In this document: positions 14,381-30,028 of the stretch, piece after piece | Layout of the letters: every line of letters begins with the position of its first letter | How positions within the stretch are numbered: the first letter of the stretch is position 1 | DNA from: Actinomycetota bacterium | GTDB lineage: Bacteria; Actinomycetota; Actinomycetes; Nanopelagicales; Nanopelagicaceae | Assembly: GCA_026393035.1 (NCBI GenBank) | Contig: JAPLAY010000014.1 | Coordinates: 1-64,000 of the forward strand | Reading direction: 5' to 3' | Length of the DNA: 64,000 nucleotides | The notes under the pieces: model-generated | What the model saw: only the letters and a program-made list of their open reading frames with translations | What the model was told of the DNA's origin: nothing | Database searches by the model: none | Program-made: the position numbers and the translations under genes

Positions 14381-14998
14381 ATGAGCGTTCAACTTCTAGT
14401 CGAAGAGATTGCATCACTATTACAAGGCTCAAAACCTCGAACCATGATCGGCATAGTAGGCAAACCTGGCGCTGGAAAATCCACAGTTGTTACGGAGATT
14501 CAAAAACAATTTAGTACAGAAGACGTCGCAATCATCCCAATGGATGGATATCACTTAAGCAATGAAGAATTAATCAGGCTCGGACGTCGGGAACGCAAAG
14601 GCGCACCTGACACTTTTGATGTCGAAGGATTTATCTCACTGATAACAAGAGTCAGAAATGAAATAGATAAGGACCATACCTTTCACATCTTTCATCGTGA
14701 AATTGAAGCTTCGAAAGCGGATGAGGGAATCGTTCTGCAAAATACCAAGGTAATTGTTATTGAAGGTAATTATCTTTTTTCAGAAGAACACAACTGGAGC
14801 GAGGTATTTCCACTTCTAGATCAGAGTTGGTTTATAGAGATTGATGATGAAATACGGATGCAGCGATTGATCACTCGCCACATAAAGTATGGAAAGACGC
14901 CACAAGAAGCTGAAGATTGGTCTCGCGGATCTGATGAAGCAAATGCAAAATTCATTGCCAAAACTGCGAGCAGAGCAGAAAGAATTATTAAGCTGTAA
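14381..14998 (+). CDS. Nucleoside/nucleotide kinase-family P-loop protein (uridine kinase/PRK-like)
   Basis: GIVGKPGAGKST P-loop, IPMDGYHLSNEEL, VIEGNYLF. Confidence 0.8.
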   Translation: MSVQLLVEEIASLLQGSKPRTMIGIVGKPGAGKSTVVTEIQKQFSTEDVAIIPMDGYHLSNEELIRLGRRERKGAPDTFDVEGFISLITRVRNEIDKDHTFHIFHREIEASKADEGIVLQNTKVIVIEGNYLFSEEHNWSEVFPLLDQSWFIEIDDEIRMQRLITRHIKYGKTPQEAEDWSRGSDEANAKFIAKTASRAERIIKL

Positions 14999-15749
14999 TT
15001 CCACCAATAAATGGCAGCTTAAGCTTTGGGAACCAGGTTCGCCATGCTGAAATCACGAATAAATAAATTGGGAATCCCATCAAAATCCAGTATTCCAAAC
15101 CGTCATAATGCTTTACAGCCAGCGGGTTGAAGTCCCACGAGAGAATCGCCAAATTAACCAAGTAAATAATTGCTAATGGCAGAGTCAACCAACGCAATTT
15201 AACTACTCGAACAAGGTGTGGCATTTTGAAATTAGTTAATTGGCTTATGCATAAAATTGTAGAGACAATCAACACGTTTCTAGATGACATATCCATAATT
15301 AGAAATGTAGGCACTGCCAAATTCCATACCGCTGGAAAACCGTTGAACCAATGATCTTCAGTCTCTAAATCAGTCCTCGCAAACCAAAGCGCAGAAGAGA
15401 GAAATATTGCTCCTGCGATTAACGTTTGAAAACCTTCTGGCAAAAGTCCTAATTGGATTAGTAGCGCAATTGGCACCAATACGCAGGTAATGTAATCAAC
15501 TACCAAATCTAGAATGTGGCCATCAATCTTCGGCGCATGAACATGGATATCTATTCGTCTTGCGATTGGTCCATCTAGGCCATCTAACACTTGGCAGAAA
15601 ATAAGCCAGAGAAGTGCAGCTCGCCATCTGCCATCAATTACGGCTTGGAGTGCCAGCATTCCAGCAACAGCGCCTGATGCAGTCGCAACATGAAGTGCGT
15701 AACCTGCACGCACTGCATTCTTGATTGATGAATCTGAGTTCATTGCCAA
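14988..15749 (-). CDS. CDP-alcohol phosphatidyltransferase, probable phosphatidylcholine synthase-like
   Basis: DGLDGPIARRIDIHVHAPKIDGHILDLVVDY; the 12-residue AR-to-G spacing matches Pcs rather than the usual 8; multi-TM. Confidence 0.7.
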   Translation of the reverse strand: MAMNSDSSIKNAVRAGYALHVATASGAVAGMLALQAVIDGRWRAALLWLIFCQVLDGLDGPIARRIDIHVHAPKIDGHILDLVVDYITCVLVPIALLIQLGLLPEGFQTLIAGAIFLSSALWFARTDLETEDHWFNGFPAVWNLAVPTFLIMDMSSRNVLIVSTILCISQLTNFKMPHLVRVVKLRWLTLPLAIIYLVNLAILSWDFNPLAVKHYDGLEYWILMGFPIYLFVISAWRTWFPKLKLPFIGGITA

Positions 15750-17648: not shown

Positions 17649-17724
17649 GCGCTTGTAGCTCAACGGATAGAGCATCTGACTACGGATCAGAAGGTTAGGG
17701 GTTCGAATCCCTTCAAGCGCACCA
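17649..17724 (+). tRNA. tRNA-Arg (ACG)
   Basis: GCGCTTG/CAAGCGC acceptor stem, anticodon loop CTACGGA, GGTTCGAATCC T-arm, CCA. Confidence 0.95.
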
Positions 17725-17729
17725 GATAA

Positions 17730-18332
17730 TTACCAAGGAAAGTCTAAAACAAAAATCTCCCCGTTAATTTCCTTAACTTCATAGCTCTTCAGTGGAGCAT
17801 TTGCTGGGCCAGATATTGCCTTGCCGGTATTACCATCAAAATAAGAGATATGGCATTTACAGATTAATTTGCGAGCTTCAATTTCAACACCGCAACCTTC
17901 GTGTGTACAAACATTATCGAATGCAACTAAGCCCTTGGATGATCGCGTAAGAATATAAGGCTTTCCTCTGCCGTAGGAATCCTTATTTATGAAGATCTTT
18001 GTTTCACCTTCAGCAAGATTGGATGAAGCAGCAACTCTTATCTCGGTCAATTTTGGCGAACCTGAAACTGGTTTCGGTTGAGTACTAGCCGTCGGTGAAG
18101 TTGTGGGACTGGCGCTTGTGGAAGGAGTGCTAACAATTGGTATCCCTTTATTCCAAACAATTTTCTTGCCTGACTTAATTGCAGTATATTTTTTATTGCG
18201 CCAGACAATTACCTGACCAATTCGCTTTGGTTTTAAGCTGGGTTGTTCAATGGCAAAAGCCGAAGCTCCAAAAGAAGAGAAAAGTAATGCCAAACCACCA
18301 AGCAAAATACTGCGGCGATTTATTCGACTCAT
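17730..18332 (-). CDS. Tat-exported Rieske [2Fe-2S] protein with low-complexity linker
   Basis: RRSILLGG twin-arginine start, CTHEGCGVE and CKCHISYFDGNTGKA Rieske motifs, Ser/Thr/Pro-rich linker. Confidence 0.85.
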   Translation of the reverse strand: MSRINRRSILLGGLALLFSSFGASAFAIEQPSLKPKRIGQVIVWRNKKYTAIKSGKKIVWNKGIPIVSTPSTSASPTTSPTASTQPKPVSGSPKLTEIRVAASSNLAEGETKIFINKDSYGRGKPYILTRSSKGLVAFDNVCTHEGCGVEIEARKLICKCHISYFDGNTGKAISGPANAPLKSYEVKEINGEIFVLDFPW

Positions 18333-18511
18333 TTAAATAGCATAGCAAGGAGACCCGCAATTTTGCTCTCTGTAAACCTAAAATTCACTTGGCTAAAAAA
18401 AGTTCAATTTTTAATCTTTCATTACATGAACATACACAATCAGTTTGCCTAGAGTTTTAGATTCGCCATAAGGATTCCTCCGAAGTCACTCCGACCAAGA
18501 TAGGAAAATGA

Positions 18512-20140
18512 ATGAATATTAAGCATAAGAAAGTTGTGGCTGTTGCTGTTTCAGTCGCAGCTGTTATCTCTTTAAGCGCCGCAGCATGGCCAACAAATAA
18601 GCCAATTTACTTAGTTGCCGATAATGATGCCGTAGCAATTAATGCAATTGGAACAACTGGGGATATTTTAAGTGGAACAGTTATTCGCGGAATTCCTGAT
18701 GGAATGGGAGCCTTTGCTTCTGAAAATGGTCGAAGCGTTACTGTTCTTGCAAACCATGAAGTAGCAATCAATGACAAAGTTGCCCTTAAGAGTGCATCGA
18801 AAGATTCACCATGGGGAACATCGATCACTAAGTTGAATTACAGCAAAACACTAAATAAGTTCGATGCGGCAGAACCGCTAGTTACTTCTTGGAACTTTTG
18901 GAACTATAAGACTGGTGCATATGTTTCAACACCAATCGGTGGCGAACCAACTAATGCGGCAGCCGGCTCATTTGGTTGGGGCATTAGCCGTTTCTGTTCT
19001 GGAACTTACACACCTGCCGGAACTTTCATTTATAACGGTGTCGGTTTTGATGGTGGGCTGTTCACAACTGGCGAAGAAGTAGGCGACAGTTCTCGCGGAT
19101 TTGCTTTTGATATGACAGGTGCGGCATATCAACTTCCTCGCGTTGGAATGTTGTCAATGGAAAACATTATTCCAGGCACAAAAAAGGGCCCAAATACTGT
19201 GGCACTTATCAATGAAGACGGATCTGCTACAGACTCTCAACTTCATCTGTACATCGGAAAGAAGCAGAGCACAGGAACAAGCGTTGATAAAGCTGGCCTA
19301 ACAAATGGCGATCTCTACGTGCTGAATGTTCCAACTGCAGCTACAGATAACATCTTCCGCACAACTATCGCGAAATCAACACCTACTCCTGCAACATTCA
19401 AGAAGATTGAATGGAACACAGATGTTACTTCTTTTGCTAAAGGTGCCCGCGACAACGGAACAACTTTCGCGCGAATCGAAGATGGAAACTGGGATCCAAA
19501 GAATCAAAATGTTTTCTATTTCCTAACAACAGAATCGAATAAAGATCCAGTTGCCACTGCAGAGAATCCAGCTGAACCAGGTATCTCACGTGATGGCGGC
19601 GCTCTTTGGCGCTTAACTTTCAAGGATGCACAAAATCCACTTGAAGGTGCGACTCTTGAAATGCTTCTAAATGGTGGCGAAGCTCCATACCTAAGCAAGC
19701 CAGATAACATGACAATTACCGATAATGGTGTTGTTGTAATTCAAGAAGATCCAGGCAACAACGCACACATTGCAAGAGTCCTTGCCTACCGAATCTCAGA
19801 TGGAAAGCTAGCCACATTGGCGAAATTCGATAGCCAGTACTTCACAGCATCAGGTAGCAGGTTCATGACAATCGATGAAGAATCATCAGGCGTAATCGAT
19901 GTTACTTCTCTGCTTGCAAAAGCTGGCGATACGAATACTTACCTAATGTTAAATGCACAGGTTCACACTTATAGCGGCGTAACAACAGTTGATAGTGGAG
20001 TTAAGGGTGCAACTACCCCTGCTCGACCAGATCTTGTTTCGAAACCGACAACCTCTAAGTCAACACTAGATAAGGCAACAGTCGAAGGTGGTCAGTTCTA
20101 CACAATGACTATTTCTGATTGGACGAAGGTATTTAACTAA
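18512..20140 (+). CDS. Secreted PhoX/DUF839-like phosphatase
   Basis: Signal peptide, GEEVGDSSRGFAFDM, IEDGNWDPKNQNVFYFLTTESN, GGALWRLTF, and EDPGNN, as in PhoX-like propellers. Confidence 0.65.
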   Translation: MNIKHKKVVAVAVSVAAVISLSAAAWPTNKPIYLVADNDAVAINAIGTTGDILSGTVIRGIPDGMGAFASENGRSVTVLANHEVAINDKVALKSASKDSPWGTSITKLNYSKTLNKFDAAEPLVTSWNFWNYKTGAYVSTPIGGEPTNAAAGSFGWGISRFCSGTYTPAGTFIYNGVGFDGGLFTTGEEVGDSSRGFAFDMTGAAYQLPRVGMLSMENIIPGTKKGPNTVALINEDGSATDSQLHLYIGKKQSTGTSVDKAGLTNGDLYVLNVPTAATDNIFRTTIAKSTPTPATFKKIEWNTDVTSFAKGARDNGTTFARIEDGNWDPKNQNVFYFLTTESNKDPVATAENPAEPGISRDGGALWRLTFKDAQNPLEGATLEMLLNGGEAPYLSKPDNMTITDNGVVVIQEDPGNNAHIARVLAYRISDGKLATLAKFDSQYFTASGSRFMTIDEESSGVIDVTSLLAKAGDTNTYLMLNAQVHTYSGVTTVDSGVKGATTPARPDLVSKPTTSKSTLDKATVEGGQFYTMTISDWTKVFN

Positions 20141-20175
20141 CTTTAGCTGCGCCTAGTTAAAGCCTAGTTAAAAGG

Positions 20176-20208
20176 CTAAGCCCCGCCACGTAGACCGGCG
20201 GGGCTTAG
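20176..20208 (+). terminator. Intrinsic terminator after PhoX-like gene
   Basis: CTAAGCCCCGCC-ACGTAGACC-GGCGGGGCTTAG perfect stem followed by TTATTTT. Confidence 0.88.
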
Positions 20209-20299
20209 TTATTTTCAAGAATTTCTGACTTGCATCGCACAATCTAAAATACTTCTACCGAGTAGGCTGGCGGCTTAGTCATTAGATTGAGGTAGCAAA

Positions 20300-21079
20300 A
20301 TGAGCTCCAACTTCACACTCGCTGTTTGTTCGGAGATGGTCTTCTTAGATCTGCCACACATTGAACGCGTCAAAAAAATTCATGAACTTGGATTGGCTGT
20401 AGAAATTTGGGACTGGACGCAGAAAGATATTCCTGCCCTTGCCGCTACTGGCGCGAAGTTCACATCGATGACTGGATATATAACTGGCCGTCTGGGCGAT
20501 AGCGAAGGTGCAGCTGAGCTTTTAAAAACTGCAGAACAATCAATTCCTGTCGCACATGCGCTTGGGAATCCATCTTTGAATCTGCATGGAACTGGTTTGG
20601 ATAACAAAGGTTTGCCAGCACAACCTTGCTTTGATGTCACACCCGCGATGTGGGAGCAGGCGGAAATTACGCTAAATCAGATTGCAGATTTAGGTGCCGC
20701 CAATGGTGTCACTTTCGTTCTTGAGAATTTAAATCTTCTTGTTGATCATCCAAACACCCCATTCGGTCTGGCTAAGGATGTAATTAAGTTAGTTAAGAGC
20801 GTTAACAAGCAAAATCTAAAGATGAATTTTGATATCTATCATGCACAAATTGGCGAAGGAAATTTAATAGAACTACTCCGTGAAGCCCTTCCAATCATTG
20901 GCGAGATCCAAGTTGCTGATGTTCCAGGTCGGCAAGAGCCTGGAACAGGTGAAATTAATTATCCAATGATTGCTAAAGCCCTTAAAGATATGAAATACAG
21001 TGGGGTAATTGGAATGGAAGCCTGGGCGAGTAGCGATAGCGAAGTAGCGATTGCTAGATTTAAAGAAGCATTTAACTAG
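20300..21079 (+). CDS. Hydroxypyruvate isomerase-like TIM-barrel protein
   Basis: FVLENLN, MNFDIYHAQIGEGNLIELLRE, GEIQVADVPGRQEPGTGEINY typical of the Hyi family. Confidence 0.82.
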   Translation: MSSNFTLAVCSEMVFLDLPHIERVKKIHELGLAVEIWDWTQKDIPALAATGAKFTSMTGYITGRLGDSEGAAELLKTAEQSIPVAHALGNPSLNLHGTGLDNKGLPAQPCFDVTPAMWEQAEITLNQIADLGAANGVTFVLENLNLLVDHPNTPFGLAKDVIKLVKSVNKQNLKMNFDIYHAQIGEGNLIELLREALPIIGEIQVADVPGRQEPGTGEINYPMIAKALKDMKYSGVIGMEAWASSDSEVAIARFKEAFN

Positions 21080-21094
21080 GAATAAGGAGTCGAA

Positions 21095-21382
21095 ATGAGC
21101 AAGGTCTACCTTTTTGTAGCAATTGATGTTAAGCCAGGGAAGAGCGCTGAATTCTTAGCGAAAATTGCAAAACATGGTGCACATATTCGCACTGAAGAGG
21201 GCTGTGAAGCGCTAGAAATTTTTACTGATACCAATAATCCAAACCAAGTTTGTGTCTGGGAAGTCTGGACTAATCGCCAATTGTGGGATGCCCATATGGT
21301 TAATGATGCAAGTGCCGCGTGGCAAGGCGTAGCAAAAGAGTTTGTGAATGGTGAAAAAATAACTGTGATGGACGCTATTTAA
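21095..21382 (+). CDS. Antibiotic biosynthesis monooxygenase (ABM)-domain protein
   Basis: 95 aa with VAIDVKPGKSAEFLAKI...EEGCEALEIF...VWEVWTN...W..H pattern. Confidence 0.75.
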   Translation: MSKVYLFVAIDVKPGKSAEFLAKIAKHGAHIRTEEGCEALEIFTDTNNPNQVCVWEVWTNRQLWDAHMVNDASAAWQGVAKEFVNGEKITVMDAI

Positions 21383-21385
21383 TTC

Positions 21386-22105
21386 ATGGAATCCGAAGAT
21401 AGATCAGTCTTTGATTTACCCTACAGCGCACCAACTAATACTTTTAGTTACGGGAAAAGCGTTGATCAGGTAATTGATTTCTATCTTCCCGTTGAATCGG
21501 ATAAACCAACAATTGTTTTAATACACGGGGGATATTGGCGCCCAGAATATGATCGAAAGCATTTGGCACCACTTGCCCAGAAATTTGCAGATTTAGGATG
21601 GCCAGTAGCGCTAATTGAGTATCGCAGAATTATTGGCAATCCAGATGCAATGATGAGTGATGTTATTAGTGCGATTGAAGAAGTAGTAGGTCGAAATAAT
21701 AAGTTGGTACTAATTGGACATTCAGCTGGTGGGCATTTGGCTTTACTTGCTGCAAATATATTAAGCGTTTTAGGTGTAATTGCGTTGGCGCCAGTCACTG
21801 ACTTAGTTAAGACGGAAGAGTTAGATTTAGATGAAGGTGCCGCATCTGATTTTCTTGGCGCGCCAGCTTCACTTCGGGCTGATTTAGATCCGATGCGGCA
21901 GCCAGTTTTAACCGTTCCAACAACTCTTATTCACGGCGATTTAGATATTCGGGTGCCAGTGGCTTTTGCAAGAGATTACGTGGCGAAAGCTGCTAGTTCA
22001 CATATCAAATTAATAGAGCTAGAGAACATTGGTCATTTTGAAGTAATTGACCCACGGCATAAAACTATGGAATTAATCTTGGAGCAACTAACCCAGATGG
22101 GGTAG
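21386..22105 (+). CDS. Alpha/beta hydrolase, kynurenine formamidase-like
   Basis: HGGYWRPEYDRKHLAPLA oxyanion motif, GHSAGGHLAL nucleophile elbow, HGDLDIRVP, GHFEVIDP. Confidence 0.8.
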   Translation: MESEDRSVFDLPYSAPTNTFSYGKSVDQVIDFYLPVESDKPTIVLIHGGYWRPEYDRKHLAPLAQKFADLGWPVALIEYRRIIGNPDAMMSDVISAIEEVVGRNNKLVLIGHSAGGHLALLAANILSVLGVIALAPVTDLVKTEELDLDEGAASDFLGAPASLRADLDPMRQPVLTVPTTLIHGDLDIRVPVAFARDYVAKAASSHIKLIELENIGHFEVIDPRHKTMELILEQLTQMG

Positions 22106-22192
22106 AGCTAAACCCATTTGTTCACCTTACGTATTACCTGAATTTAACTTAGTCTTGTTAAGCGTTAAAAGTAAAAGCCTATCTTTCAACCC

Positions 22193-24034
22193 ATGAGCAC
22201 AATTGATTTCCAAGGCGGCGAAGTACTTGCCGCACTTGAGAGCCAATTTGCCCCAAAGGTTATAGCTAAGCCGAAGCCTGAAATAAGAATAAAGAACGCG
22301 ATTGTCTGCTCTTTTTACACAAGCGATGATTACTACAAAGGCCATGGAGCCAGACTTCGAGCAAATTTAGAAGAACTTGGAATCGCAGTTGATCTTCGTG
22401 AAATCACAAAAAAAGAGGGTGAAGATTGGGCGGCAATTTGCCGGAAGAAAGTTGGGTTTATTGCTGAAGTTTGTGCGGCTAATCCCGATAAAAAGGTTTT
22501 TTGGATTGACGTAGATTGCGAACTTTTTTCTATTCCAGATTTCATTCTAAATTCAACTGCAGACATCATTGGGTTCCAACGTGGTTTTAGTAATCCGACA
22601 AAGATTGGTTACGAAAACCGTGGCCGCTTTTGGGAACCTTGCTTTTGGGGAATTAACAACACACCGCAAGCTCGGAAGATGGTTCAAGCTGCTGCAGACT
22701 TTGAAAAAGTTGCAACAGTCCGTGCGACGGATGACTTTTTCTTTGAGGAAGCTTGGCGTGCAGTTTCACCAAACATGACGTTTCAGATTATTCCTTCAAA
22801 TTGTGCAGTAGATAAGGGCGCTGGAACTCTTGAGAGTCATGATGTTTTCTTCCGCTTTGGATCAAGCGGGCAGGTAGAAAATTTCAAGAACAAAGTCGAG
22901 CAGCATAAAGGCAATAAAGCTAAGAAACTTCTAAACCCAAAACGTGAATTACTTGAATTAGCCAAACTTATTGAAGAGAAATTGCCTGAGAAGCTATCTG
23001 TTCGCATGCGTCTATTGGTAGATGCATCTGGCATAACCGGTTTCTTAACCGGCAAAAAGCACAATAATTTAAATAACCAAACTATTAATGAACTTGTAAA
23101 AGCTGGAAAATCCGGTGATCTTAAGAAATTTAATAAAGCACTTGAATTATTCAAACGAAAAGTCCTTCCTAATAGGTACGAAAGTGCTGCAATAAAGGTT
23201 GCATCAAGTTATTTGGCATATTCAGCCAAGCCAAGTAAAGAAAAGCTAAACATCGCTTGGTGGGAGAATCCTTATCCAGGAAACTACGGGGATTGGTTAA
23301 CACCATTTATCTTTAACCATTACACAGATAATAAAATTATTTTCCAAGGGTTGACTACGCAGGCGCCAAAGAAGCATCTGGTCAGCTTGGGTTCAGTGGG
23401 ACGTTTTATTAAGAGTAATTCAGTTGTTGTGGGTACCGGAGTTAGTTCATTCAAGCATGCGTTAAATCCAAAAGCTGAATACATTTCAGTACGAGGACCA
23501 CATACTGCAGAACTTCTTTTAAAATCTGGTGGGCCGATAGTTGAGAGCTTTGGCGATCCTGCTGTTGTTCTCTCGCGAATATTGCCTTTCACTCGAGGTG
23601 AAACAAATGGCCGTGTTGCACTTATTCGCCATCACACACATCTTCAAGCACCTGTTAAATTGCCAGAGAATTTCGATGAACTCAGCGTTCAAATCTCACA
23701 CCCAAATGACATCATCGCCTTCATTGAAAAATTACATGAGTACGACAGCGTTGTGACAAGTGCAATGCATGTGATGATTACATGTCAAAGTTATGGCATC
23801 CCGTGTGCGCTAGTTGTATTTAGAGGCTTTGAAGATTATGTACACGGCGATGGAATTAAGTATTCAGATTACGCTCTTGGAGCCGGTGTAAAAGAGCTAA
23901 ATCCAGTTGCGATCGATCCTAAAATTAAATTATCTGAATTAGAACCTATTACTCATGAGATCAGAATTTCAGAGCGAAAAATATCAGAAGTAGAAGCTGC
24001 CATTAAAGAAGGAATCAAGCGACTAAATAAGTAG
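22193..24034 (+). CDS. Two-domain protein: GT-A-like domain plus polysaccharide pyruvyl transferase domain
   Basis: N-terminal VFWIDVDCEL DxD-like motif; C-terminal WWENPYPGNYGDWLTPFIF, SVRGPHTAELL, SFGDPAVVLS, SAMHVMITCQSYGIPCALV. Confidence 0.75.
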   Translation: MSTIDFQGGEVLAALESQFAPKVIAKPKPEIRIKNAIVCSFYTSDDYYKGHGARLRANLEELGIAVDLREITKKEGEDWAAICRKKVGFIAEVCAANPDKKVFWIDVDCELFSIPDFILNSTADIIGFQRGFSNPTKIGYENRGRFWEPCFWGINNTPQARKMVQAAADFEKVATVRATDDFFFEEAWRAVSPNMTFQIIPSNCAVDKGAGTLESHDVFFRFGSSGQVENFKNKVEQHKGNKAKKLLNPKRELLELAKLIEEKLPEKLSVRMRLLVDASGITGFLTGKKHNNLNNQTINELVKAGKSGDLKKFNKALELFKRKVLPNRYESAAIKVASSYLAYSAKPSKEKLNIAWWENPYPGNYGDWLTPFIFNHYTDNKIIFQGLTTQAPKKHLVSLGSVGRFIKSNSVVVGTGVSSFKHALNPKAEYISVRGPHTAELLLKSGGPIVESFGDPAVVLSRILPFTRGETNGRVALIRHHTHLQAPVKLPENFDELSVQISHPNDIIAFIEKLHEYDSVVTSAMHVMITCQSYGIPCALVVFRGFEDYVHGDGIKYSDYALGAGVKELNPVAIDPKIKLSELEPITHEIRISERKISEVEAAIKEGIKRLNK

Positions 24035-24730
24035 TTATTTAAGTCCCGCGTTAGCTCGGTCTAAATCATCTTGGAAATCAACTTCAACGGCAAATAGATC
24101 AGAGATATCTACTGGTTCCATTTCAATGCCATTCTTTTCGATGGCAAGCTCAAGGCCACGTTCAAAGTAATCTTGCTCAGCACATGCCTCTAGTTGCGTG
24201 ATTACATTTGCTTTTTCGTGAGCCGAAATAAAGTTAATACCGACTGCCTCACCCAGCGCGTTCTTTACAGTCTTTGAAAGTTCTTTGATGAAACCCTTCT
24301 CATTAACTGTGTACTTAACTTCCTCTTCTGCCGTAGCGGAAGTATTTACGCAGACAAAAGACTTTTCAGACTTGATTCGATCAGCTACTCGTTCCAAAAC
24401 TTTGGCATCAAAAACGACATCGCCATTTAGCCAGAGAACTCCAGATTCTTGGCTTGCGTGAAGTGCCTTCAACAGACTCTTCGAAGTATTTGTTTGATCA
24501 TAAATTTCATTGTAAACAAAGCTTGCACTTGGGTGCGCTTCAATAATCATTTCAAGTTTAAATCCAACAACTACAGTTACGCGTGCTTTGTCACCGAATA
24601 CTTGTGAAACATTTTCCATCTGTTGTTGCATGATAGAACGACCATCAGATAAAACTGTTAACGGCTTTGGCCAAGGCTTTCCTAGCCTTGTTCCCATACC
24701 GGCTGCCAGAATCACAACTTGAATAGCCAT
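24035..24730 (-). CDS. Sugar-phosphate nucleotidyltransferase (NTP transferase)
   Basis: VILAAGMGTRLGKPWPKPL signature and LWLNGDVVFD. Confidence 0.9.
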   Translation of the reverse strand: MAIQVVILAAGMGTRLGKPWPKPLTVLSDGRSIMQQQMENVSQVFGDKARVTVVVGFKLEMIIEAHPSASFVYNEIYDQTNTSKSLLKALHASQESGVLWLNGDVVFDAKVLERVADRIKSEKSFVCVNTSATAEEEVKYTVNEKGFIKELSKTVKNALGEAVGINFISAHEKANVITQLEACAEQDYFERGLELAIEKNGIEMEPVDISDLFAVEVDFQDDLDRANAGLK

Positions 24731-24792
24731 CTCTATCTTTCCAACCCATCTTTACCTAAATAATCCCTGTTAGGCACGATAGATTACCGCTT

Positions 24793-26418
24793 ATGACCGC
24801 AAATCTACGTACCCTAGATGTTGATCAGGGCACCAAGATTTCAGAAGTTTTAGCGGCCTTCCAATCAAGCAATCAAGATCTGCTTCTAGTCGATGTCAAT
24901 ACTGTTGTCACAAAACCACACCTTGAATTATTGACTGACTATCCAAGGACAGTTACGACAGCATTAGTTTCGAAGTTAAAAGATGGCGAAACTCGGGTAA
25001 GTCAAGGTCGAATTACCGGCGCAACTTCCGGGTATCACGAAGTTGGGTATGGCAATCACACCTTCCTTGGAATTATTCGACTTTCCCAAACCCAAAAAGC
25101 TGAGATAATCGAAGCGCTTTCAAGGGTTAAAGATACAAATCATTCGGGAAATACCATCGACTTAATTCTGGTGGCACTTGTGCGGGCGGCAATAGTTATC
25201 GCACCAGCAGATGTTGCAGGAGCCCCTTTCATTAGAAGCAATAACGCAAATGATAGAGATGCAACTAAGAATCAAATCGCAGCGCTAAATGATGCCAGGT
25301 TGCGGTTAAAGCTTGCGAACCGTGCGAATGATGGTTTCTACTCTGTTTTCTTTCTCCGTAAAATATCTAAATTATTTACCTGGCTTGCGGTACAACTGAA
25401 GATGACACCAAACCAAGTAACGCTAATTTCTTTTGCAATCGGATTGTTTTCCGCATATGAATTTAGCAAAGGAAATTTCTGGGCAATTTTTGCAGGTGCG
25501 GCTTTGCTTCAACTCAGCATAATTATTGATTGTGTCGATGGTGAATTAGCACGATACACCCGACAGTTCTCACAACTTGGTGCCTGGCTTGATGCAATCA
25601 CAGATCGAATAAAAGAGTATTTAGTCTTCTTCGCTCTTGCATATGGCGCTGCTAAAAACGGAAGAGATCTTTGGATCCCGGCAATGGGCATGATGCTCTT
25701 TCAAACATTTAGGCATCTCTCTGACTATAACTTTGCACGCATAAATAAGATTAGAAGCTCGCACCTAGAGCCGCTTGATTTTAATTTGAAGAACGATGGC
25801 TTTGTTTCGGTCGAACGCGAGAAGAAAACCCGCTTGGAATACTGGTCAAAGAAGGCGCTGCAGTTCCCAATTGGCGAACGTTGGTTAGTAATAAGTGCAT
25901 CTTCAGTTATCGGTGGTGCGGCATTTACTTTCACAGTCATGCCGATTCTTTCGCTCATTTCTATCGCATTGGTCTTTCGTGGTCGTTTTATCAAAACTAT
26001 AACCTGGCCAAAAGATCGAGTAAACAAGAACTTAATAGATGACCAATTAGATTCAATCAAGAACAAGAGTTCAACAAATCGTTTTGACTGGCTTGAACCT
26101 TCGCTACTTCGACTTCTCGAGGGTGCAATATTTATTGAACTTGCAGTTGTAACAAGCCTAGATAGATCTATAATTTTCTTACTTTTATTTGCAATTCTTT
26201 TTAACCACTATGACAACATGTACCGGGCACTTCAAGGTGAGAGAAAACCAACCTGGTTATCCATCGCCGGAGGTTACATATTTGGTCGCTTACTCTTGAT
26301 TGCGCTCTGGATTTGGCTCGGGTGGTCACTAACAATCCTGGTTTATTATTTCAGTGCGTTATTCTTTATAGTCTCTTCAACCCAGTGGATACTTAGTCGT
26401 AAAGTGAAGGCGGACTAG
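24793..26418 (+). CDS. CDP-alcohol phosphotransferase with degenerate NTP-transferase-like N-terminal domain
   Basis: DCVDGELARYTRQFSQLGAWLDAITD matches DxxDGxxARx8GxxxDxxxD; about 200-aa N-terminal extension; C-terminal TM region. Confidence 0.82.
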   Translation: MTANLRTLDVDQGTKISEVLAAFQSSNQDLLLVDVNTVVTKPHLELLTDYPRTVTTALVSKLKDGETRVSQGRITGATSGYHEVGYGNHTFLGIIRLSQTQKAEIIEALSRVKDTNHSGNTIDLILVALVRAAIVIAPADVAGAPFIRSNNANDRDATKNQIAALNDARLRLKLANRANDGFYSVFFLRKISKLFTWLAVQLKMTPNQVTLISFAIGLFSAYEFSKGNFWAIFAGAALLQLSIIIDCVDGELARYTRQFSQLGAWLDAITDRIKEYLVFFALAYGAAKNGRDLWIPAMGMMLFQTFRHLSDYNFARINKIRSSHLEPLDFNLKNDGFVSVEREKKTRLEYWSKKALQFPIGERWLVISASSVIGGAAFTFTVMPILSLISIALVFRGRFIKTITWPKDRVNKNLIDDQLDSIKNKSSTNRFDWLEPSLLRLLEGAIFIELAVVTSLDRSIIFLLLFAILFNHYDNMYRALQGERKPTWLSIAGGYIFGRLLLIALWIWLGWSLTILVYYFSALFFIVSSTQWILSRKVKAD

Positions 26419-26421
26419 GCA

Positions 26422-27195
26422 ATGGCTACAAGACCAAGTCGACCAACAATTGCCCAAATTCGTGAGATTTCACAACCTATCTCTGTCACTGGTAGATCAA
26501 CATCGGAACATTGGATTGCAGACCTCTATCAGAGAAGAATTTCTCCCTACTTAACACGCATTCTTCTTCGCACCCCAATAACTGCTAATGGCGTCACCTG
26601 GCTGATGATTTTAGTTGGCGCTTCGATTGGCCCTTCACTTTTAATTCCCGGTTGGCAAGGAATTGCAATTGCTTTACTTCTTAGCCATCTACAAATGTTG
26701 ATTGATTGCTGTGATGGTGAAGTTGCAAGGTGGCGTGAAACTAAATCACCAATGGGAATTTTCTTAGATAAGTTGGGACATTATTTAGCTGAAGGATTAA
26801 TTCCAATCTGCTTTGGTCTGCGCCTGGCAAATTGGCCAACTGAAGCTGTAACTAATTCGATTTATCCATTCCTAGGTGCCTTGTTATCGCTCTTAGTAAT
26901 TGTAAATAAAGGGTTAAACGATGCGGTGCATGTAGCACGAGCATTCTCTGGCTTACCTAAAATTCAAGATAAATCTGGAATCAATATGCCGACCAAAGGC
27001 ATACTTCGTAAATTGCGAAAAATATTTAACTTTATTCCTGCCCAACGAATGTTCCACTCAGTGGAATTCACGATGTATGTGGCTATCTTCGGGACTCTGG
27101 GTGAATCTTTGAAAATCGCCCTCGGAATCGCCCTATTTGTGACGGTAGGTCATATCGCAGCGATCGTATCTTCAGCGAAACTACGGAATAATTAA
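26422..27195 (+). CDS. CDP-alcohol phosphotransferase paralog with terminal motif Asp replaced by His
   Basis: DCCDGEVARWRETKSPMGIFLDKLGH; multi-TM. Confidence 0.8.
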   Translation: MATRPSRPTIAQIREISQPISVTGRSTSEHWIADLYQRRISPYLTRILLRTPITANGVTWLMILVGASIGPSLLIPGWQGIAIALLLSHLQMLIDCCDGEVARWRETKSPMGIFLDKLGHYLAEGLIPICFGLRLANWPTEAVTNSIYPFLGALLSLLVIVNKGLNDAVHVARAFSGLPKIQDKSGINMPTKGILRKLRKIFNFIPAQRMFHSVEFTMYVAIFGTLGESLKIALGIALFVTVGHIAAIVSSAKLRNN

Positions 27196-27198
27196 GCC

Positions 27199-27969
27199 AT
27201 GCTAACTATTGTAAATCAGCTCCGCCTGGCGCTTCTTGAATTATTTACAACCACCAAGTACCGGATAATTTTAATAAGCCTTGTCTTGATTGCTGCTTTT
27301 ATTTCAGTCTCCGAGCTAGCAGTAGCAAAGCTGTTTACAAAAATTATTCTCCATGAAGGCACACTCAGCCAAACCAAGTTGATTACATTTGTTGGTGCTT
27401 TCTTCCTATTTTTTGGCGGAACAAGGGCAGGTCATTTCCTGCAGCGAATTTATCGAGTAAATGTATTTGATAAGGCTTTTAAAGAATCAAGTTCAGAGGT
27501 CACAGGAGCAAAAGATAACTGGCGTTGGTCTCTTGCCTTTGAATTAACCAACTTGCTAAGCACTTTTACCCAACTAGGGGTAATTGTTCTCTTCTTTACC
27601 TATTTCAATTGGATCTTCGGTTTGCTTGATATCGCAATACTTTTCTTGGTTTTTGAAGTGTATGGCAGATTGTTTAAGCACCAGATGGAAGCGCAGCGGG
27701 GATTCGTGACTGCACGGAAAAATAAGATTCCAATTGCAAATGTTGTGAGAATTGGAACTCGCATCAAATCTGGTGAAACTGGAATCTTACTTTCAGGAAT
27801 TGCAATGATAGTTCTACTGGGAGCGCTCATATATTTCAGCTATGAAGGTGACATCAGCAAAGCAAACACTGTTGTTCTATTCTTTGGACTGCGCATGCAG
27901 AACTCGAATTTATCCAATATATCTACTGGTTTAATGAGATTTGCAAGGGCGCGAACTCATAGTGAATAA
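27199..27969 (+). CDS. Membrane protein resembling an ABC exporter transmembrane domain, no ATPase domain
   Basis: 256 aa with 5-6 hydrophobic segments and C-terminal FFGLRMQNSNLSNISTGLMRFARAR; no Walker motifs. Confidence 0.55.
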   Translation: MLTIVNQLRLALLELFTTTKYRIILISLVLIAAFISVSELAVAKLFTKIILHEGTLSQTKLITFVGAFFLFFGGTRAGHFLQRIYRVNVFDKAFKESSSEVTGAKDNWRWSLAFELTNLLSTFTQLGVIVLFFTYFNWIFGLLDIAILFLVFEVYGRLFKHQMEAQRGFVTARKNKIPIANVVRIGTRIKSGETGILLSGIAMIVLLGALIYFSYEGDISKANTVVLFFGLRMQNSNLSNISTGLMRFARARTHSE

Positions 27970-28714
27970 CTCCTTGCCTTTAACAATTGGCTATTCGACT
28001 TTGGCCAGTAGGGCGAAGAATATTAAGTTTTTGAACTCAGTGAGCAGCCTTGTAATAATTCAAAATCCTGAAGCTAGTGGCCTACCTAATTTCAGTGATG
28101 AAATTACAGTGGTTGAATTACAAAGTAAGGGCGTAGCAAAGAGTCGAAACTCTGCAATTGATCATGCAAAGTCCAAATATTTGATTTTCGGTGATGATGA
28201 TATTGAATTTAGTGAGGCTGGGATTGCCTCTGCTATTAATTTCTTGGATGCCAATCAAGGTATATCAATCTTGCTAATGCAAGCAGTTGATGAAACTGGG
28301 AAGCTTCGCAAGAGTTATCCAACAAAGGCACATGCGCTAAAGCTGACAAATTCAGCGAAGGCGGCGACATATGAGATGGCAATTAGAGTTTCTGATATCA
28401 AGAGAGCCGGTATTAGATTTGATGAGAACTTTGGTGCCGGGGCAACAAACTATCTCGGAGATGAATATATTTTCATCGCCGATTCGATTCGTGCAGGTCT
28501 GAAGGGTCAATTTGAACCCATTGTGGTTGCTACGCATCAAACGCAAAGTTCTGGAACTCTTCGGAATTCAGTTAAAGATCGAAGCGCGCGAGCAAAGGTA
28601 TTCGGTCGAGTCTTTGGAATCTGGGCGCCAGTCATGCGCCTCTTATTTCTTGTTAAGCCACCCTTTAAGAAATTTGGTCTAGTTAATTCATTGCTCTTCA
28701 TATTTGGCAAATGA
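27962..28714 (+). CDS. Family 2 glycosyltransferase
   Basis: GVAKSRNSAIDHAKSKYLIFGDDDIEF GT2 pattern; GTG at 27962 is a plausible start (listed ORF starts at 27941). Confidence 0.78.
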   Translation: MNNSLPLTIGYSTLASRAKNIKFLNSVSSLVIIQNPEASGLPNFSDEITVVELQSKGVAKSRNSAIDHAKSKYLIFGDDDIEFSEAGIASAINFLDANQGISILLMQAVDETGKLRKSYPTKAHALKLTNSAKAATYEMAIRVSDIKRAGIRFDENFGAGATNYLGDEYIFIADSIRAGLKGQFEPIVVATHQTQSSGTLRNSVKDRSARAKVFGRVFGIWAPVMRLLFLVKPPFKKFGLVNSLLFIFGK

Positions 28715-29385
28715 AGATTTACGCACATCGCGGATCTTCCGGTGATAACCCTGAAATGACGAGAGTGGCATATTTGGCGGCAATCAATGATGGCGCAGAT
28801 GGTTTTGAATGTGATGTTCGGTTATCGAAAGATGGCGAAATAGTTTGTTTTCATGATGCCACCACAAAACGCATTGCTCAAAAGAATTTGCGAGTATCTC
28901 GTAGCAATCTAAAAGAACTCCAAAGCGCCTGCGAAATAATGACTTTAAATGAATTACTTGATCTCGCGATTTCCGCAGGAAGAGATTTACTTATTGAAAC
29001 CAAACATCCAGTGCTTTCTGGTGGCCGGATAGAACGCAAAGTTATTGAGCTATTAGATATAAATGCCGAGCGAATAAGTCTGGCCGGAATCGAAGTAATA
29101 GTCATGTCCTTCTCAAAATTCGCTATTGGAAGAGTAAATTCCAATTGGAGCGTTTGTAAGGTTTCTAAATACTATTTACCGGCAATTCTTTCACGAGGCA
29201 AAATTTCTGCGCTTGATATCGAACTGATTATTAAATATCCAAAACTTGTTACAAAAGTTTCGAGCAATGGATCACGAGTTTTAGTCTGGACTGTAAATAA
29301 GAAAAATGAGTTTAAGCTCTGTAAAGATTTGAAGGTTGATGGTGTGATTACTAACTATCCGAAGGTTGCAAGAAACTATGGATAA
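28711..29385 (+). CDS. Glycerophosphodiester phosphodiesterase
   Basis: YAHRGSSGDNPEMT, GFECDVRLSKDGEIVCFHD, LLIETKHP. Confidence 0.9.
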   Translation: MKIYAHRGSSGDNPEMTRVAYLAAINDGADGFECDVRLSKDGEIVCFHDATTKRIAQKNLRVSRSNLKELQSACEIMTLNELLDLAISAGRDLLIETKHPVLSGGRIERKVIELLDINAERISLAGIEVIVMSFSKFAIGRVNSNWSVCKVSKYYLPAILSRGKISALDIELIIKYPKLVTKVSSNGSRVLVWTVNKKNEFKLCKDLKVDGVITNYPKVARNYG

Positions 29386-30028
29386 GAAACTTTCAAACTT
29401 CTACTTCTGGGGTGCTGGGTACTTGCTATTGGTATGCGCAATTCTTACTCTCACATCATCAAAGGTGACTGATGGGGAGATTCAAATAGTAGAAAAAGAG
29501 GTTGCACCGCTCCTCTGTTTCAACGTTGAAACCTCGGAACTACGAACCAGCGATACTGAAAGTGGTTGCCTAGCCCCGGAAGAATCTCTAGGAACAGAGC
29601 CAATTAACCACACAGATGTTCGACCGACACAAATTGATAGAACTTTTGAAGTTCGATTTTTGGCGGCTCAAGTTGCAGCAAAAGAAGCAGGCTTCAACAT
29701 TCGCATAACTTCAGGATTTAGAACGCAACAATTGCAAGAAAGTTTGCATGCAGATGCCGTTAAAAAATATGGGAGTGAAGAGGAGGCCTCGAAGTGGGTT
29801 TTGCCTAAAGAAATTTCCCACCACACATGGGGCACTGCAATAGATGTGAATTATCCTGGTGATCGCAAGGCTGCTAAATGGCTAGAAGAGAGCGGTTCAA
29901 CCTTTGGACTTTGCCGGGTTTACAAGAACGAATGGTGGCATTTCGAACCAGTTATAGCCCCTGGTGAGCTCTGCCCACCAATGATGGCAAACGCCTTAGA
30001 AAGTCTGCCAACACCAGAAGTTAAATAG
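29378..30028 (+). CDS. VanY-type D-alanyl-D-alanine carboxypeptidase, membrane anchored
   Basis: N-terminal TM; SGFRTQ, SHHTWGTAIDV, EWWHFEP metal-ligand motifs. Confidence 0.85.
   Translation: MDKKLSNFYFWGAGYLLLVCAILTLTSSKVTDGEIQIVEKEVAPLLCFNVETSELRTSDTESGCLAPEESLGTEPINHTDVRPTQIDRTFEVRFLAAQVAAKEAGFNIRITSGFRTQQLQESLHADAVKKYGSEEEASKWVLPKEISHHTWGTAIDVNYPGDRKAAKWLEESGSTFGLCRVYKNEWWHFEPVIAPGELCPPMMANALESLPTPEVK

Follow-up and report, generated by a model that had tools for sequence, protein, structure and literature searches.

Why should a freshwater actinobacterium carry, in a run of eight closely packed genes, two adjacent CDP-alcohol phosphotransferases of which only one has the complete catalytic signature of the family, and what do these genes make? 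The locus lies at positions 22193-30028 of the 64,000-nucleotide stretch of contig JAPLAY010000014.1 analysed here (the window), whose host is by inference acI-like. The acI actinobacteria are among the most abundant freshwater bacteria, few descriptions of their envelope polymers exist, and surface loci like the present one are candidates for interaction with phages and grazers. A first-pass annotation, made from the DNA alone, had proposed that the genes act together in the synthesis and turnover of a phosphodiester-linked surface polymer or an unusual phospholipid. The reading favoured here, to which we give a probability of roughly 0.6, is that the locus specifies a streamlined wall-teichoic-acid-type pathway making a CDP-alditol-derived phosphodiester surface polymer. 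It is not a new category of locus: it is a variant of the teichoic-acid type employing CDP-alcohol phosphotransferases.

Organisation of the locus

The eight genes are given below, where AP1 denotes the CDP-alcohol phosphotransferase/DUF5941 protein and AP2 the second, adjacent CDP-alcohol phosphotransferase.

22193..24034, + strand: 613-residue fusion of an unassigned N-terminal part and a polysaccharide pyruvyl transferase domain (PS_pyruv_trans, E 8.5e-11, residues 394-540)
24035..24730, - strand: nucleotidyltransferase, core (NTP_transf_3; GxGTRLxxxxPKP loop and NGD motif intact)
24793..26418, + strand: AP1, 541 residues, core in the order Nanopelagicales and in Streptomyces (CDP-OH_P_transf and DUF5941)
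26422..27195, + strand: AP2, 257 residues, core and the most widespread gene (CDP-OH_P_transf; fourth signature Asp replaced by His)
27199..27969, + strand: 256-residue membrane protein that on weak matches may be the transmembrane half of a type IV ABC exporter, the ATPase domain being absent
27941..28714, + strand: GT2 glycosyltransferase, core (Glycos_transf_2)
28711..29385, + strand: glycerophosphodiester phosphodiesterase, accessory (GDPD; signal peptide not obvious by eye)
29366..30028, + strand: VanY-type (M15) D,D-carboxypeptidase, accessory (VanY; N-terminal hydrophobic segment)

A check of the open reading frames (ORFs) of the window found all eight at the coordinates first read, and the near-continuous run that the first-pass annotation had described is real. 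The fusion ends directly against the nucleotidyltransferase gene (24034/24035), which starts 62 bp upstream of AP1 on the opposite strand. From 24793 to 30028 successive genes are spaced by 3, 3, -29, -4 and -20 bases, and because of these small gaps and overlaps the genes for AP1, AP2, the membrane protein, GT2, GDPD and VanY read as one operon. The GC content of the window is 40-46%, with a slight dip across 22-30 kb. Pfam confirmed the families of all the ORFs except the N-terminal half of the fusion and the 256-residue membrane protein, so that the labels first given to six ORFs and to the pyruvyl transferase domain were borne out, but "GT-A-like" and "ABC-exporter-like" proved to be weak.

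Conservation of a four-gene core

Of 151 genomes surveyed in the order, 30 have AP1, at 37-87% identity when the window's own is excluded. The nucleotidyltransferase, AP1 and AP2 genes stand together in every one of the 24 neighbourhoods read; since this holds with differing flanks, and down to 37-39% AP1 identity, their association is more than chance. The ABC-like membrane protein and GT2 follow them in a large subset of these neighbourhoods and GDPD and VanY in smaller ones, while locus L059 has AP1 displaced to beyond the membrane protein. In three loci part of AP1 is seemingly a separate ORF beside the nucleotidyltransferase (L078, 9122-9703; L076, 11716-12333; L077, 9216-9695), and there AP1 seems to be split or differently fused. 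Nucleotidyltransferase, AP1, AP2 and GT2 constitute the core of the cassette, and the remaining four genes are accessory or limited to subsets; a lack of co-occurrence in related genomes, which would have refuted the first-pass annotation, was not what the relatives showed, but the fusion, ABC-like protein, GDPD and VanY are not equally linked to the core.

AP2 in company with a GT2 extends well beyond the order, into other Actinobacteria. When GTDB contigs were searched with a profile of AP2, at least 550 relatives were confirmed; among the 80 retained are Nanopelagicales, Agromyces, Leifsonia, Cryobacterium, Herbiconiux, Frigoribacterium, Curtobacterium, Brevibacterium and Mumia. In the 60 AP2 loci with enough flanking sequence, GT2 was present in 59, a TagB-like gene in 48, TagH in 44, the nucleotidyltransferase in 43, TagG in 41 and AP1 in 11, and AP2 loci sometimes also hold LCP genes. 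The families concerned were confirmed on example loci, namely Glyphos_transf, ABC2_membrane (Wzm-like), TagH-like ATPase, LytR_cpsA_psr (LCP) and an IspD+SDR fusion. Five Nanopelagicales loci (L091, L092, L097, L102 and L116) bear the full set in one run, with the nucleotidyltransferase and TagB genes on one strand and those for TagG, TagH, a sulfotransferase-like protein, AP1, AP2 and GT2 in that order on the other, and these intermediates tie the reduced form in the window to teichoic-type loci. The surface polymer of the first-pass annotation is thereby both supported and sharpened, because the set of AP2, GT2 and nucleotidyltransferase is found in relatives beside TagB/F-like, TagG/TagH and LCP genes.

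The IspD+SDR fusion is close to D-ribitol-5-phosphate cytidylyltransferase (TarI/TarJ-like), and in none of the six of these 60 loci that contain it is the NTP_transf_3 nucleotidyltransferase also present. Such mutual exclusion is as expected of alternative CDP-alditol suppliers, and suggests that the two enzymes may furnish equivalent CDP-alditols. It also bears on a different explanation, that the nucleotidyltransferase produces CDP-choline or a CMP-phosphonate and that AP1 and AP2 attach phosphocholine, phosphoethanolamine or a phosphonate to a polysaccharide. The best PDB sequence match of the nucleotidyltransferase is indeed the phosphonate cytidylyltransferase PntC (E 5e-5), but its place is taken in sister loci by a CDP-ribitol-type synthase, and neither choline kinase nor LicD was noted at the locus; decoration of this kind is improbable. 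The phosphonate route in particular was rejected: no phosphoenolpyruvate mutase scored above cut-off in 18 cassette genomes, and in 10 of these, one being a single contig, there was no match at all.

Comparison with known teichoic acid loci

Wall teichoic acid loci of Firmicutes (TagB/TagF, TagG/TagH, TagD or TarI/TarJ, LCP ligases) follow the same CDP-alditol donor logic, and the relatives of the cassette share with them Glyphos_transf, TagG/H-type transporter, LCP and TarI/TarJ-like genes. The cassette differs in using CDP-alcohol phosphotransferases and an NTP_transf_3 nucleotidyltransferase, and the window in lacking TagB/F and TagG/H. A closer counterpart is the araM/tagGH/CDP-alcohol phosphatidyltransferase/GT2 region that a 2026 synteny study of Streptomyces flagged as teichoic-acid associated (PMC13118837). 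Four of the loci read here were assigned to Streptomyces, an attribution inferred from their GC content and their match to that description; they contain AP1/DUF5941, the nucleotidyltransferase, a glycerol-1-phosphate dehydrogenase (249 bits to PRK00843, cut-off 413), AP2, GT2 and a Wzm/TagH exporter. AP1-DUF5941, nucleotidyltransferase, AP2 and GT2 are common to both systems, whereas in the Streptomyces region the dehydrogenase and TagG/H are additions, the fourth Asp position of AP2 is occupied by Ala instead of His, and the Streptomyces loci read have no ABC-like membrane protein, GDPD or pyruvyl transferase. Sought across actinobacterial genomes, as the first-pass annotation had recommended, the core occurs in Nanopelagicales carriers and in the loci assigned to Streptomyces alike. 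The description of the locus as uncharacterised holds for its biochemistry, but the related Streptomyces cluster had already been flagged as teichoic-acid associated (PMC13118837). The literature searched contained nothing on DUF5941 or on the cassette of the window, and no paper that brought CDP-alcohol phosphotransferase together with teichoic acid and cytidylyltransferase.

AP1 resembles phosphotransferases with soluble donors

AP1 comprises an NTP-transferase-like N-domain (residues ~1-170), a CDP-alcohol phosphotransferase domain and a C-terminal DUF5941 membrane domain. The signature D1xxD2G1xxAR...G2xxxD3xxxD4 is complete (DCVDGELARYTRQFSQLGAWLDAITD), and none of the 53 AP1 sequences that cover the motif has lost D4. 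AlphaFold gave a good model (pLDDT 86), whose best Foldseek matches are IPCT-DIPPS (4mnd, E 1.2e-10) and AF2299 (E 1e-8). Both AP1 and AP2 are closest in sequence, among solved homologues, to these same two proteins, in which the small hydrophilic donor pocket is consistent with soluble donors (PMC4634129). Archaeoglobus AF2299 (4O6M) and IPCT-DIPPS (4MND) are like AP1 in having a cytidylyltransferase-like N-domain fused to the phosphotransferase; AP1 differs in the additional DUF5941 domain and in the catalytic GxGTR loop, which by inspection is missing from its N-domain, and AP2 in having neither N-domain nor D4. The ~170-residue N-domain of AP1 matches, in Foldseek, the cytidylyltransferase folds of T. 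maritima and A. fulgidus IPCT, LicC and PntC; because the loop is missing it is probably degenerate, and the separate nucleotidyltransferase may supply the cytidylyltransferase activity in its place.

These matches raise the question of whether the product is a polymer at all. The nucleotidyltransferase and AP1 could instead make a soluble phosphodiester solute of the di-inositol phosphate, glycerophospho-inositol or diglycerol phosphate type, as hyperthermophile IPCT/DIPPS does, with GDPD degrading it. The bifunctional IPCT/DIPPS provides the best NCBIfam as well as the best Foldseek match of AP1, which carries the degenerate cytidylyltransferase-like N-domain besides, though at 76.8 bits AP1 falls far below the curated family cut-off of 580 (the nucleotidyltransferase scores 34.3 bits against the same cut-off). 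Against this, GT2 is near-constant, exporter and TagB/F-like genes are neighbours in relatives and a pyruvyl transferase in the window, most AP2 loci have no AP1, and freshwater mesophiles have no obvious need, as a matter of general knowledge, for thermal or osmotic solutes. A solute is accordingly a highly improbable product.

The soluble-donor affinity speaks equally to the second product considered in the first-pass annotation, an unusual membrane phospholipid or phosphoglycolipid. Here AP1 and AP2 would place a phospho-alcohol on a lipid acceptor, or use CDP-diacylglycerol, GT2 would glycosylate the product and GDPD would recycle the head group. Enzymes of the CDP-OH_P_transf family are mostly makers of phospholipids, models of PIP synthase and of archaetidylinositol phosphate synthase are remotely similar, GDPD lies within the operon, and the ABC-like membrane protein weakly resembles the lipid flippase MsbA. 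Yet the nearest solved homologues are AF2299 and IPCT-DIPPS, the core co-occurs with TagB/F-, TagG/H- and LCP-type genes, and strong canonical CDP-alcohol phosphotransferases already exist elsewhere in the genome (L001, L002). The phospholipid is the less supported of the two original proposals, and we consider it unlikely.

AP2 lacks the fourth aspartate

The divergence of the AP2 active site is a point that goes beyond the first-pass annotation. AP2 belongs to PF01066 (36.1 bits, cut-off 22), and in its profile match to AF2299 (E 7e-18) a His aligns with the D4 column (DCCDGEVARWRETKSPMGIFLDKLGH); the complete eight-residue signature is therefore not present, while homology to the family holds. 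D4 is replaced in all 111 AP2 sequences, a set in which some genomes were fetched twice, by His in 107 and by Ala in four, and D1-D3, G and AR are intact. The other CDP-alcohol phosphotransferases of the window genome and of seven AP2-carrying genomes retain D4 in 22 cases out of 22 (20 by pattern, two read by eye). The eight signature residues have been described as absolutely conserved, with D4 the likely catalytic base, and a D93N variant was nearly inactive but retained substrate binding (PMC4634129); D4 is given the same role in PMC9385802. AP2 offers a natural test of this 'absolutely conserved' residue, with hundreds of relatives, many of them in cultivable genera, and its family connects CDP-alcohol phosphotransferases, familiar as makers of lipids and osmolytes, with loci of the teichoic-acid type throughout Actinobacteria.

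The notion that AP2 is an obligate pseudoenzyme partner of AP1 was rejected as a general rule: seven genomes of Microbacteriaceae/Brevibacterium carry AP2 and no AP1, so AP2 is not merely the silent half of a dimer with AP1. Five of these seven have only two other CDP-alcohol phosphotransferases. The leading options to consider are that AP2 uses a different acceptor, or that it has a scaffold role with GT2. A phosphate acceptor needs no deprotonation, which would make the D4 base dispensable, and it is tempting to suggest, tentatively and with more doubt than conviction, that AP2 represents a non-canonical class of the family, lacking the D4 base and acting on an anionic acceptor such as polyprenyl phosphate to make the polyprenyl-pyrophospho-alditol primer of an actinobacterial teichoic-acid-type polymer. 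We know of no other member of the CDP-alcohol phosphotransferase family that carries out such a lipid-carrier initiation reaction. Alternatively, the His may itself act as base, which leaves the Ala of Streptomyces unexplained.

A proposed pathway

What was observed is the gene content, the conservation of the core, the residues of the active sites and, in relatives, the company of TagB/F-, TagG/H- and LCP-type genes; the reactions, substrates and polymer of the favoured teichoic-acid-type pathway, like its polymerising enzyme and the role of the ABC-like protein, we infer. In this pathway the nucleotidyltransferase would first convert an alditol phosphate (glycerol-, ribitol- or inositol-type) and CTP into a CDP-alditol. 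AP1, as an enzyme of the soluble-donor AF2299/IPCT-DIPPS type, would then transfer phospho-alditol onto a growing or primed chain, perhaps replacing a TagB/F-like enzyme. AP2 and GT2, from their near-constant adjacency, may jointly make the lipid-linked acceptor or prime it. Decoration of the chain would fall to the pyruvyl transferase in the window, and to the sulfotransferase-like enzyme in relatives. An ABC system would carry the chain out of the cell, and the single LCP protein of the genome, whose LytR_cpsA_psr gene lies away from the cassette (G000:C38), may attach it to peptidoglycan. GDPD and VanY would have accessory parts in turnover or wall remodelling.

Several observations count against this pathway. 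No TagB/F-like gene (PF04464) was found in the window genome, which is 82.7% complete, and this type of gene is present in 5 and absent from 20 of the 25 cassette genomes searched. TagG and TagH are likewise missing from the window cassette, three ABC-2 permeases elsewhere in the genome being candidate exporters only; the window genome must accordingly export and polymerise by other means than its relatives. TagH-type ATPases broadly resemble other ABC ATPases, and all matches fell below equivalog cut-offs. GDPD suggests glycerol, the sequence of the nucleotidyltransferase does not identify its substrate, and no convincing glycerol-1-phosphate dehydrogenase was found in the same 82.7% complete genome. 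The literature searched holds no chemical analysis of any carrier. Glycerol-1-phosphate was itself considered as the alditol in the window genome and set aside, the sole Fe-ADH_2 match being below cut-off and, at 344 residues, probably AroB.

Accessory genes

The pyruvyl transferase fusion, whose likely role is decoration of the polymer, is confined to the same genus and near relatives (a cluster of seven plus the window). Its N-terminal half gave no significant Pfam match and no PDB sequence match; a DVD motif is present, and the part is GT-A-like by eye only.

The 256-residue membrane protein is kept in 17 related loci. It had no Pfam or NCBIfam match, and consists of a transmembrane part only, with neither an ATPase domain nor an ATPase partner in the operon. 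The AlphaFold model is poor (pLDDT 53) and too weak to rely on; its best matches in Foldseek are, with few exceptions, exporters of the MsbA/McjD/IrtAB type (best E 0.043), and the best PDB profile match is MsbA (E 0.084). Fold and profile thus lean weakly towards the exporter first proposed, but family models do not support it. This protein and GDPD are limited to a subset of Nanopelagicales, and VanY is more sporadic.

Most relatives have, upstream of the nucleotidyltransferase, a gene for a 370-residue sulfotransferase-like protein with an HKSGTT motif, which the first-pass annotation does not record and which is absent from the window. No Pfam, NCBIfam or PDB match supports this identity in the relatives, and the label is drawn from the motif and from the CysD and CysN/C neighbours in three loci. 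In these three (L058, L059 and L081), either upstream of the nucleotidyltransferase or outside the cassette, the gene is flanked by CysD, by CysN/C with its APS kinase and by a TauE/SafE-like permease, which suggests that a sulfated version of the polymer may be made there.

Genomic site

A tRNA gene bounds the cassette-bearing interval on its left.

17649..17724, + strand: tRNA-Arg(acg), left edge of the variable interval 17730-30028 with the cassette

In the cassette-less congener G366 (L197, 5477-11948) what lies between tRNA-Arg(acg) and manA is an integrase-like ORF with unrelated genes, and judged against this genome the cassette occupies a variable tRNA-linked site (window 17649-30028). 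Two further congeners are also without the cassette, and their neighbourhood is rearranged. Outside this interval, at 14988-15749 on the - strand of the window, lies a further CDP-alcohol phosphotransferase, phosphatidylcholine-synthase-like (143 bits to NF045884, below the cut-off of 350) and with D4 kept, an enzyme unexpected in a streamlined freshwater actinobacterium.

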